Source of the DNA: an uncultured Bacteroidota bacterium
Lineage (GTDB): Bacteria > Bacteroidota > Bacteroidia > Bacteroidales > Bacteroidaceae
Reading direction: 5' to 3'
Assembly (NCBI GenBank): GCA_947168315.1
Contig: CAMVLL010000003.1
Span: 1-64,000, forward strand
Length of the DNA: 64,000 nt
Within the stretch, counting starts at the first letter, position 1, and each line of letters begins with the position of its first letter. A model generated the notes under the pieces. It was not told the origin of the DNA and did not search any database. It saw only the letters and a program-made list of their open reading frames with translations. Made by a program: the position numbers and the translations under genes. Below, piece by piece: positions 7,788-30,615 of the stretch.

Positions 7788-8966
7788 TTATTTCAGGAAC
7801 CGGTCGGCAAATTTGATGAATTGATTCCAGTCGTAAGGCATGGCTCCGTGTCCACCAGAGCGAACATGATAAGCGATGTATCCTTTATCCATGGCATTAT
7901 CGACTGTCGGTTGGTCTTCACAACCTATACCAGCCAAGCCGTATAAAGCATATACCGGTTCTGCACCTTTCCCTGCTAAAAATTCACCCTTAGGATCTCC
8001 CCATGTATCTTCTACAGCAGTAGCCAAATAAATAGGACGCGGAGCACAAAGGGCAATGACAGAGTGTTGATCAAAAGGCATATATTGCTCTCTCAGACTG
8101 AACTGTTGGAAATTATCACAAGTCCAATGAGGAAATTCATTATTCATTGACCAAACGGTTTCACCTATCATGCGGCGTGACAAAGCTCCTCCACCGCATC
8201 CTGAGTTAACAGGAAAGACAACCGCGAACCGTCTGTCTTGTGCCGCAGCCCAAAGGGCAGCCTTCCCCAAACGAGAGATACCTAAAACGGCCACTTTTTT
8301 TGCATCGACTTGTGCATCATTCTGGAAATAATCCATCAAGCGACTGGCTTCCCATGCCCAAGCGGCCAGACTTCCCCATTCGTTAGGACGACGATAAACT
8401 TGTTTATCATTATAATAGGCAGAAATCAAGCCATCCGTAAATGATTCCTTCCTATCTGGAGCTGCTTCAAACGTATTTAAGATCGCAACTCCGTAGCCAT
8501 GTTCAAGAAAAAGATCAGAAGGATACATCTGATTCATAAACCCCCAACCGAAGATCATAAAGAGAGGAACAGGACCTTTCGCATTATTTGGTATTACCAG
8601 CTCGGCATGTGTGAGCGGTCCCGCCTCATTCTTATCCGTCAAATAAAGTGTGATATTTTTCTTGGTGTATTTCCCTTGGAAATTCGCATCAACAATTTCA
8701 ACCTTGTATTCCAATGGATGTTCCAAGACAGGCGCATGTCCATACATATAGGTCTTCACGATATCCAGCAGTTCCGGGCGACGATACTTCTCCCATTCTT
8801 CAGCAGAAGTAACAACATGTCCGTTCTCACACAACAAAGGATCCGGCAGCGTATATGCAGGAATCTTACTCTCATCATAATTACGTGTCCATTCTTTCTT
8901 TATATCCTGTGACTGAACCGTCAATGTCAGGAAAGAAACAATCAATAAATAAAGTGCTTTTTTCAT
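7788..8966 (-). CDS. carbohydrate esterase family 15-like (glucuronoyl esterase-like)
   Basis: Signal peptide; nucleophile motif VAVLGISRLGKAALWAAAQDRRFA; VNSGCGGG; catalytic His region SGGHGAMP. Confidence 0.8.
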   Translation of the reverse strand: MKKALYLLIVSFLTLTVQSQDIKKEWTRNYDESKIPAYTLPDPLLCENGHVVTSAEEWEKYRRPELLDIVKTYMYGHAPVLEHPLEYKVEIVDANFQGKYTKKNITLYLTDKNEAGPLTHAELVIPNNAKGPVPLFMIFGWGFMNQMYPSDLFLEHGYGVAILNTFEAAPDRKESFTDGLISAYYNDKQVYRRPNEWGSLAAWAWEASRLMDYFQNDAQVDAKKVAVLGISRLGKAALWAAAQDRRFAVVFPVNSGCGGGALSRRMIGETVWSMNNEFPHWTCDNFQQFSLREQYMPFDQHSVIALCAPRPIYLATAVEDTWGDPKGEFLAGKGAEPVYALYGLAGIGCEDQPTVDNAMDKGYIAYHVRSGGHGAMPYDWNQFIKFADRFLK

Positions 8967-28041: not shown

Positions 28042-28077
28042 AAAGGAGATAGCCATAAGCTATCTCCTTTTTTTGTT
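28042..28077 (+). terminator. rho-independent terminator
   Basis: AAAGGAGATAGC / GCTATCTCCTTT stem, CATAA loop, T-run. Confidence 0.9.
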
Positions 28078-28149: not shown

Positions 28150-28189
28150 AATGACTTTTTTGTAGAAAGCAAATGACTTTTTACTAGAA
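28150..28189 (+). promoter_or_regulatory. 18-bp direct repeat, 22-bp period (candidate operator)
   Basis: AATGACTTTTTtgTAGAA (28150-28167) and AATGACTTTTTacTAGAA (28172-28189). Confidence 0.6.
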
Positions 28190-28204
28190 CGATAAACTAT
28201 TTTA

Positions 28205-28237
28205 TTTGCATTGAGCCTGTCATACTTTCTACTTTTG
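28205..28237 (+). promoter_or_regulatory. Bacteroidetes-type promoter (TTTG-N21-TACTTTTG)
   Basis: TTTG 28205-28208; TACTTTTG 28230-28237; ATG at 28267. Confidence 0.6.
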
Positions 28238-28266
28238 CTCAGCGAAAAACAAGAATAACGCTGATT

Positions 28267-28695
28267 ATGAAAAAAAAGTACACAAAACCAATAATGAAAA
28301 TTGAAATGTTTGTGCCACATCAATACATAGGTGCATGTAACACATCCAATTTCTATTGTAATAAGGATTTGGATTTTGGTGAAGATTTATACCTCCCAAA
28401 TAATAGTGTTCAATGGCCTAGAGACTACGAAGACGTTTTAGTTGATGGTGAATGGGTAACCAGGAAAACAGCCTATGAGCCTGTGGATGGGTGTGGCATG
28501 AATTTCAAGAACATTGAATATCCCGAAATACATATCCAGCAGGGTTACATCGTGAAATGCGGCGATGATTTCGAAAATCCAAATCACGAAAAGATTCCTG
28601 TTTGGGTTTGGGATGGTCAATCAACTGGAAGCTATTATACACCTGGGGATTTTCATACTCACATTAGCACAATAGAACCGACAAACGCTTCATAA
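28267..28695 (+). CDS. hypothetical small protein with KPxMkxExFxPxxYIgAC N-terminus
   Basis: 142 aa, four Cys, own promoter, no hydrophobic signal peptide. Confidence 0.6.
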   Translation: MKKKYTKPIMKIEMFVPHQYIGACNTSNFYCNKDLDFGEDLYLPNNSVQWPRDYEDVLVDGEWVTRKTAYEPVDGCGMNFKNIEYPEIHIQQGYIVKCGDDFENPNHEKIPVWVWDGQSTGSYYTPGDFHTHISTIEPTNAS

Positions 28696-28775
28696 GGCAT
28701 AACTACATTTATTTACCCCCTATTATTTTTTATAATTTACCCGGGTGCAACAAAAATAAATTAGCTTAACTGCGG

Positions 28776-28810
28776 GTAGCAGGCAATGGGAACAGCCTGC
28801 TACCTTTTAT
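28776..28810 (+). terminator. terminator-like hairpin
   Basis: GTAGCAGGC / GCCTGCTAC stem then CTTTTATCT. Confidence 0.6.
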
Positions 28811-28893
28811 CTAAGCAGATACCGTCTTAAAAATACAAAAAAATGCTTATCTTTGCCGTGAAAAGTAGTTTTTTACCTAACCTCGTGAACTTT

Positions 28894-30615
28894 ATGACTG
28901 GTTATAAGTATTGTTTTATTGTATTCCTATTCCTTTTTAACTTTTCTTCTCCTATCTCTGCTTTTGATATCAAAGATGAAGAAATCAATCAAGATGGTAT
29001 TAATAAATACACACTCGTCAATGTTGAGAAGGCAAAGGCTATCATGCAATTGATGAGAGAACGTAGGATGTTCCCCACTTATAAACTAAACCGAATAGAA
29101 GGATCCATCTATTTTAATCGTGCGGATTATATTGAAGCCTTAAGGTTATATAAGCGTGCACTCTTTGATCAGGAAATAGAAAAGGTAATTCCCGAGAAAC
29201 TGGCAATCTACAATATGATAATGCTATGTTATTATTATCTGCATGATATCCCCAGCACTGAGTATTATGTTGAGAAGTTATATGACTTAGCCACCAAATC
29301 GGATAATAAACTATATCTTTCCTCTGCTTATTTCGGGAAAGGATTAGTCGACCATGCAAAAAATAATAAAGCCACTGCATACTCTCATTTTGAAGAATGT
29401 ATCTCGTTATTAAAAGAAATAGATACTCCCTGCTCAAGAGATAAGTTGTTTTATCGATATCTTTCATTGTTAGAACATCAGCAAGAAGACAACCTAAATG
29501 AGGAAGCACTTCAGACGATTCAAATCATATATGATTTTCAAGCATCCAGAGATTCAAGTGAAACTTATATGGATCCTTGGGATAGTGTACATAAAAAAGA
29601 TTATCTGGCACATTGCGCCGTTATTCATCAACGGCTTGGACATACTGAATTGGCAGCTGACTATTACCAACAATTCATTAATACAGCCAATATGTACCAA
29701 AGCGATTATAAATGCATTGAGCCATACCTCTATGATATGAAGCTGTATGATGACATCATTCGGTTCACTAATGCTCGCAAGTACTATTTGAAATCCATTG
29801 CCGATACTATGAACTATGAGATGATTTCGATAAGTGAGATGTCGGCAAGAGCTCATATTGCCAAAGGAGACTATGATAAAGCTTCCTCCGACTACGCTAA
29901 AATCCTTTTGTACTACGAGAAAATCAAACAAAGTGAGGAGAATAGCATTATGACCGAGTTGACCTCCAACTATGAGATGAAGGAAAAGGAATTAACAACG
30001 GAACGTCAAACAACCAGAACTAAGATAAAAAACATCTTGTTTGTGACATTTCTTTTATTTATGATGGCCGCTTTTATTGTCTACCGTACCATTCATTACA
30101 ATAGAATCATCACACGTAAGAACCAAATCCTGACAAAACGTATCGACGAACTTCTTAGTTTCAAGGAAGACTTATTTAAAGAAAATAATCAAAAGAAAGA
30201 AGAGTCCAACGAACTGGAAAAAGAACTATTTGACCATATGCATCAATGTATTGTTAAGGATCAATTGTATTTGGATCCAGAACTTTCAAGAGAAGTGTTG
30301 ATGAAGAGATTTTGTATTCCTAGAAATGTCTTCTCCTCTTTATTCCATAAATACATGAATACATCATACAATCAATATATCAACGATTTCCGTTTGGAAT
30401 ATGCTATTAAGCTCTTTAAAGACTATCCTAACTATACTATAGATGCGATAGCCAATGAAAGCGGATTCTATTCACCAACATCCTTGTACCGTCTTTTCTC
30501 ACAGAAATATGGAATGACTCCTTCAGAATATAGGACGATGCTTATTGAATCTTCCCAACAGGAGAAACAGAATTTGTCAGTCCCACCAAAGGATTGTCAA
30601 ACTTCTTGTGGGTAA
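28894..30615 (+). CDS. TPR - transmembrane - AraC-type HTH one-component regulator
   Basis: Signal peptide, TPR helices, TM (NILFVTFLLFMMAAFIVYRTI), coiled coil, C-terminal ANESGFYSPTSLYRLFSQKYGMTPSEYR. The 28843 start overlaps TATCTTTG (28848-28855), so the start is placed at MTGYKY. Confidence 0.82.
   Translation: MTGYKYCFIVFLFLFNFSSPISAFDIKDEEINQDGINKYTLVNVEKAKAIMQLMRERRMFPTYKLNRIEGSIYFNRADYIEALRLYKRALFDQEIEKVIPEKLAIYNMIMLCYYYLHDIPSTEYYVEKLYDLATKSDNKLYLSSAYFGKGLVDHAKNNKATAYSHFEECISLLKEIDTPCSRDKLFYRYLSLLEHQQEDNLNEEALQTIQIIYDFQASRDSSETYMDPWDSVHKKDYLAHCAVIHQRLGHTELAADYYQQFINTANMYQSDYKCIEPYLYDMKLYDDIIRFTNARKYYLKSIADTMNYEMISISEMSARAHIAKGDYDKASSDYAKILLYYEKIKQSEENSIMTELTSNYEMKEKELTTERQTTRTKIKNILFVTFLLFMMAAFIVYRTIHYNRIITRKNQILTKRIDELLSFKEDLFKENNQKKEESNELEKELFDHMHQCIVKDQLYLDPELSREVLMKRFCIPRNVFSSLFHKYMNTSYNQYINDFRLEYAIKLFKDYPNYTIDAIANESGFYSPTSLYRLFSQKYGMTPSEYRTMLIESSQQEKQNLSVPPKDCQTSCG

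Follow-up and report, generated by a model that had tools for sequence, protein, structure and literature searches.

What does a small Cys-containing protein do beside a membrane-spanning regulator, and do the two genes belong together? The question is raised by a locus in the 2.57-Mb genome of a gut Phocaeicola, located in the window, as we call the whole stretch of 64,000 nucleotides that was analysed. An earlier note had proposed that the two genes form a candidate signalling pair, in which a TPR-AraC regulator would act as a one-component sensor, with the small protein as its possible target or ligand.

The gene pair and its ortholog

Both genes are present at the locus as real open reading frames, the small one preceding the regulator (Table 1). 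With regard to the former, the description in the earlier note holds: the protein, hereafter P0001, has 142 residues, four Cys (positions 24, 31, 76 and 98) and no hydrophobic segment, and its gene has its own promoter. Bacteroidota promoters follow a consensus composed of TTTG and a -7 box; a scan for sigma-70-type promoters carries no information in this group. Both terminators were likewise recovered, one belonging to the upstream operon and the other, a hairpin with a T-tail, standing between the two genes; this second hairpin was absent from the terminator pattern scan and is supported by its folding energy. An alternative frame of the regulator, coding for 590 aa, starts at 28843, i.e., upstream of its putative -7 box. 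No RNA element of the locus was found in Rfam. Two candidates were discarded, namely, an 'IGAC/VAAC' lipobox in P0001, rejected as a lipoprotein signal because no hydrophobic segment precedes it, and a ATTTACCC repeat located 3' of the small gene, dropped as an operator because its spacing differs between the window and the ortholog (about 24 and 14, respectively).

Table 1. Features of the locus, with positions in the window
Feature	Position	Strand	Support or remark
Intrinsic terminator of the upstream operon	28042..28070	+	-17.3 kcal/mol, z -5.4
Tandem 18-nt direct repeat, 22-bp spacing (AATGACTTTTTTGTAGAA / AATGACTTTTTACTAGAA), candidate AraC-type operator	28150..28189	+	
Small-gene promoter, Bacteroidota type TTTG-N21-TACTTTTG	28205..28237	+	layout identical in ortholog L085
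Small protein P0001, 142 aa, RiPP-like precursor, [Y/W]xxP leader / C-terminal Ser family	28267..28695	+	
Putative leader MKKKYTKPIMKIEMFVPHQYIGAC, YxxP motif	28267..28338	+	27-sequence alignment
Codon of the conserved C-terminal Ser, candidate phosphorylation site	28690..28692	+	
29-nt non-coding block directly 3' of the small gene's stop codon	28696..28724	+	identical in ortholog
Terminator-like hairpin and T-tail between both genes	28774..28808	+	-21.1 kcal/mol, z -4.3; conserved in L085
Putative -7 box of the regulator (TATCTTTG)	28848..28855	+	
TPR-TM-AraC regulator, 573 aa	28894..30615	+	
Transmembrane segment of the regulator, about aa 376-401	30019..30096	+	
AraC-type HTH of the regulator, aa 471-548	30304..30537	+	PF12833 1.8e-16

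The regulator comprises, in order, a signal-like N-terminus, TPR repeats, one transmembrane (TM) segment, a coiled coil and an HTH_18/HTH_AraC domain. This is the architecture previously described, apart from the length, which is 573 aa and not 574. Its HTH scores above the gathering threshold with both PF12833 and PF00165, which places it in the AraC family. The topology prediction and the AlphaFold model agree in supporting the proposed location of the TPRs outside and of the HTH inside the membrane. A Foldseek search with the TPR part returned LGN first and also the pheromone-binding Rap and NprR, a similarity to peptide-binding proteins that is generic for this fold. The literature searched contained no account of this Bacteroidota system or of regulators with a TPR-TM-AraC architecture.

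An orthologous pair is present in another species of the same genus (genome G419, locus L085), with 83% amino acid identity for the small protein and 65% for the regulator. The dN/dS ratio is about 0.06 for each gene, with a dS of 1.6 or more that is near saturation for the regulator, and both genes are therefore functional and under purifying selection. The ortholog of P0001 keeps the YxxP leader and the terminal TNAS, and the small-gene promoter and the inter-gene hairpin are conserved. The 29-nt block that follows the small gene is unchanged, despite strongly diverged synonymous sites.

A precursor family and its putative maturation cassette

P0001 has no match in Pfam and only a meaningless CorA match (0.26) in NCBIfam; its family profile has no match in the PDB, Foldseek with the small-protein model gave nothing better than E 0.5, and a related-locus search with P0001 as query returned no locus. 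Used as the sole query, P0001 nevertheless gave leader-level matches, frequently arranged in tandem, in six further Bacteroidaceae genomes, with a homolog whose leader is 61% identical (E 2e-4). In an alignment of 27 members, only four columns are invariant, namely, P8, F15, C24 and the terminal Ser, while K2 and G93 are nearly invariant. The family is thus characterised by an N-terminal [Y/W]xxP leader, a variable core and a nearly invariant C-terminal Ser. Profile searching located members in 15 of 399 Bacteroidaceae genomes, including that of the window, in 9 of 61 genomes of the genus, and in one further genome of an order-level sample; named records are Phocaeicola faecium, uncultured Phocaeicola and uncultured Parabacteroides. 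Among the 62 Bacteroidaceae members collected, 58 end in Ser; among the other ORFs of these loci, the proportion is 28 of 643. Many of the 62 belonged to the training alignment, all of whose sequences have this ending. This is apparently an undescribed precursor family, and the assignment of P0001 as a precursor is well supported by genomics.

Many relatives are located in exopolysaccharide loci (Poly_export, Polysacc_synt_2, sugar-transferase), together with PqqD/RRE proteins, an HprK-like kinase, an archaeal-type signal peptidase (SpI-like), a PF14907 nucleotidyltransferase, radical-SAM (rSAM)/SPASM enzymes and ABC exporters. The cassette PqqD protein (PF05402, 1e-16) matches solved lasso-type RRE structures (9x90, 5v1u, 9x8z). 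The HprK-like proteins keep the His, P-loop and Asp positions, with a weak match to TIGR04249 and to no Pfam family above cut-off. The peptidases, of the S24/S26 type, match PF00717 and, below cut-off, TIGR02228 (sigpep_I_arch), and keep the Ser/His motifs. The nucleotidyltransferase matches PF14907 with 2.3e-32 (3e-35 for the copy in the window's genome), and the exporter carries PF00664 and PF00005, both in locus L022 and in the window's genome. The Cys-containing cores are the obvious candidate substrate of the radical-SAM enzymes. Of the 399 Bacteroidaceae genomes, 11 have the close SpI/HprK subfamily, and each of these 11 is one of the 15 with members of the small family (p 1.5e-18); only this close subfamily is specific, since more distant HprK/SpI homologs occur in 306 of the 399. 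Three genomes (G097, G044 and G362) have family members without a close cassette.

In genome G405, a complete cassette lies beside two small genes. It contains two HprK-like and two PqqD genes (L106:2549-7512), which suggests two modification branches. An ORF on the same locus (L106:9050-9445) has the leader start of the small family (MEKKSYVKP) with the remainder absent, and may be the remnant of a decayed precursor gene. A second, more distant cassette, composed of ABC, PqqD, S26-like and HprK-like genes and with no precursor identified, is found at L048:4810-8203 (contig C2 of genome G000).

The leaders fall into classes, with 42 YxxP, 18 WxxP, one FxxP and one in which none was recognised. 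An rSAM/HprK cassette is near 24 of the 42 Y-type members and none of the 18 W-type members (Fisher p 1e-5), whereas a PqqD-fusion gene (130-170 aa) adjoins 13 of the 18 W-type and none of the 42 Y-type members (Fisher p 2e-9), the loci entering these tests not being phylogenetically independent. The PqqD-fusion companions mostly begin with a YxxP stretch resembling the Y-type leader, ahead of the PqqD domain (L029:297-707, L050:7004-7411, L061:7011-7529 and L068:4662-5075; L052:7106-7528 has FNRP instead). This start is possibly a built-in tag recruiting them to the cassette RRE.

As already noticed in the earlier note, no modification or export enzyme is found near P0001. In its own genome, rSAM, HprK-like, PqqD and nucleotidyltransferase genes are on contig C37, assigned to the genome through MAG binning only (2.6% contamination), while SpI-like peptidase, ABC exporter and sugar transferase genes are found on C46; additional small genes are spread over C10, C47, C90, C133 and C68. 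Because the cassette enzymes are on other contigs, P0001 is probably an orphan precursor matured in trans. In a related genome, G355, small genes likewise lie apart from the cassette, and orphan placement therefore recurs. The 81% complete assembly of G419 has a close SpI-like gene and no close HprK or rSAM match, a partial miss for the in-trans hypothesis.

Proposed pathway and alternative readings

On balance, we think it probable that P0001 is an orphan precursor of a Bacteroidaceae pathway resembling those of linear polyphosphorylated peptides (LPP) and paeninodin, matured in trans by enzymes encoded on other contigs, and that the adjacent regulator most likely controls the small gene, possibly sensing its product. 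The YxxP leader would be bound by the discrete PqqD/RRE protein, the HprK-like kinase and the PF14907 enzyme would act on the C-terminal Ser, adding phosphate and possibly also a nucleotide or a sugar, and radical-SAM/SPASM enzymes would modify the Cys-containing core. The archaeal-type signal peptidase-like protease would then take off the leader, and the ABC exporter would secrete the product in connection with the exopolysaccharide locus. The membrane regulator would most likely act on the small gene via the tandem repeat upstream of its promoter, and might sense the exported product with its extracytoplasmic TPRs. What the sequences show is the family with its leader motif and conserved terminal Ser, its co-occurrence with the cassette, the conserved pair and the presence of the repeat; the enzymatic steps, the control by the regulator and the nature of its ligand are all inferred. 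The entire circuit, in which an orphan RiPP-like product, phosphorylated at its C-terminus and matured in trans, would be exported and then sensed by the TPRs of the adjacent single-pass AraC regulator, with transcriptional feedback, is unlikely to hold in all its parts.

The regulatory link draws on several observations. AraC-type regulators of any kind represent 4 of the 82 genes adjacent to small genes and 3 of the 542 other genes, an enrichment with a Fisher p of 0.007, their detection profile being built partly from these HTHs, and those tested also passing Pfam; at two loci (L025 and L060), AraC-type genes of other architecture are directly beside small genes. The tandem repeat (28150/28172) sits just upstream of the small-gene promoter, none of 2000 shuffles was as good, and its core pattern occurs a single time in the genome. 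AraC-family half-sites have a similar size and spacing, and the repeat would suit an AraC-family activator. In the ortholog, a repeat at 8544/8566 has the same placement and spacing, with letters only partly conserved. Control of the small gene by the regulator is thus plausible, not established. In another genome, G426, a TM-AraC gene with no TPRs in its own frame is located directly 5' of HprK-like, polysaccharide export and chain-length genes (L091:7766-9209).

The precursor assignment may also be right and the regulator an unrelated neighbour with targets elsewhere, e.g., in a polysaccharide locus, a credible alternative that we consider less probable. Most family members have no adjacent regulator, and only three of the 62 have a TPR-TM-AraC gene next door, namely, P0001, its ortholog and the member at one independent locus. 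The idea of an obligate pair, which the earlier note had proposed to check by homolog adjacency, fails because homologs rarely adjoin such regulators. A terminator and separate promoters stand between the two genes. Moreover, the synteny with G419 reaches beyond the pair, with the same upstream genes in both (RNase R-like, Gfo/Idh-like, DUF1080-like and GH43-like, as named from sequence reading), and the shared order may therefore be plain inheritance; the gene 3' of the regulator differs. However, the independent locus, in a genome of a different genus (G054), repeats this arrangement: a small gene and its terminator are followed by the promoter and the TPR-TM-AraC gene, the two genes being separated by 72 bp, and a gene for a cassette-type nucleotidyltransferase lies at a distance of about 4 kb from the small one. 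The AraC enrichment and the operator-like repeat also speak for a link. In G054, no AraC-like repeat upstream of the small gene reached significance (56 of 500 shuffles equally good). The signalling pair thus survives in part: the pair is kept in another species and the AraC enrichment and repeat point to regulation, but the small protein belongs to a precursor family that is usually found beside maturation enzymes.

Another reading, which we regard as rather doubtful, concerns the nature of the product. The predicted structure of P0001 is beta-rich with moderate confidence (pLDDT 77), and given its 142 residues it may function in folded form and not as a small peptide. The small proteins would then be folded secreted or surface proteins, the N-terminal motif a sorting tag for polysaccharide-linked export or attachment, and the terminal Ser an attachment point (e.g., for a phosphodiester-linked glycan) instead of a classical RiPP tail. 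Cores of about 100-130 aa, predicted to be beta-rich, and the position of the cassettes inside exopolysaccharide loci are in keeping with this, but discrete RREs and radical-SAM/SPASM enzymes, both hallmarks of RiPP pathways, are present. In other respects, the lasso enzyme PsmN puts a hexose on phospho-Ser (PMC9266682), which favours attachment, whereas LPP precursors of Bacillota reach 200 aa and are nonetheless treated as RiPPs (PMC13381572). Finally, it is very improbable that P0001 is an orphan in decay or with a new role, no longer matured and kept only as a regulatory or structural protein, as its distance from cassette and RRE might imply, considering the low dN/dS, the leader and terminus kept in the ortholog, and the similarly placed small genes of G355.

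The preferred reading, in which P0001 is an orphan precursor matured in trans, would bring gut Bacteroidaceae into the range of phosphorylated peptide pathways guided by an RRE, which have been described from Bacillota only, and add to these pathways radical-SAM enzymes and genome-scattered precursors. It provides a directly testable candidate, for which the leader, the kinase, the protease and the terminal Ser can each be named. If the regulator does sense the product, it would represent a transmembrane one-component peptide sensor in gut commensals.

Comparison with known systems

The TPR fold of the regulator is similar to that of the RRNPP receptors Rap and NprR (Foldseek), whose TPRs bind exported peptides. 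RRNPP proteins are, however, cytoplasmic and sense re-imported peptides. The regulator does not belong to this family because its signal-like N-terminus and TM segment put the TPRs, as predicted, outside the membrane, linked by the TM segment and the coiled coil to the AraC HTH.

With regard to the cassette, ScmC (HprK-like), ScmD (PqqD) and ScmE/ScmF (paired rSAM) of SynChlorMet (TIGR04248-TIGR04251) are among the NCBIfam matches, but all ScmC-ScmF scores are below the curated cut-offs, and the Bacteroidaceae cassettes add the SpI-like peptidase, PF14907 and polysaccharide genes. No mention of 'SynChlorMet' was found in the literature searched. The main text of a survey of Bacteroidales RiPPs (PMC10352776) mentions no HPr kinases, nucleotidyltransferases, polysaccharide loci or phosphorylation.

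In paeninodin and pseudomycoidin biosynthesis, the C-terminal Ser is the residue on which a kinase (PadeK, PsmK) acts, and a hexose is added through PsmN (PMC9266682). Judging from sequence, the Bacteroidaceae system appears to share with this lasso type the HprK-like kinase and nucleotidyltransferase, a precursor with a conserved C-terminal Ser, and WxxP/YxxP leaders read by discrete RREs, but its precursors are far longer. Neither a lasso macrolactam synthetase nor a B2 peptidase was found among the cassette proteins scanned with Pfam, which represent a subset of the neighbouring ORFs.

The LPP pathways, restricted to Bacillota according to Popov et al. (2026; PMC13381572), rely on LppB, an RRE binding YxxP, LppK, which polyphosphorylates Ser, LppS, an SpI-like protease removing the leader, the export pump LppD and the NTP transferase LppN. 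Counterparts of all five are present in Bacteroidaceae: a discrete PqqD-type RRE (on C37 in the window's genome), an HprK-like kinase, an archaeal-type SpI-like protease (on C46), an NTP transferase and an MsbA-like ABC exporter; both systems also share polysaccharide loci and a YxxP leader with a variable rest. The Y/W split between cassette and PqqD-fusion leaders resembles the discrimination in Bacillota, where Tyr or Trp at a leader position decides the binding RRE (PMC13381572). In contrast, only YxxP is in common with the consensus YxxPxVLxHQxIxFETxxS, and the conserved Ser is C-terminal instead of being the phosphorylated Ser3 of the core that follows the leader. The Bacteroidaceae family belongs to Bacteroidota and not to Bacillota, its cassettes add radical-SAM/SPASM enzymes, often two, and many of its precursors are away from the cassette. 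Taken together, our analysis indicates a pathway that works like those of LPP and paeninodin, while being a strict member of neither.
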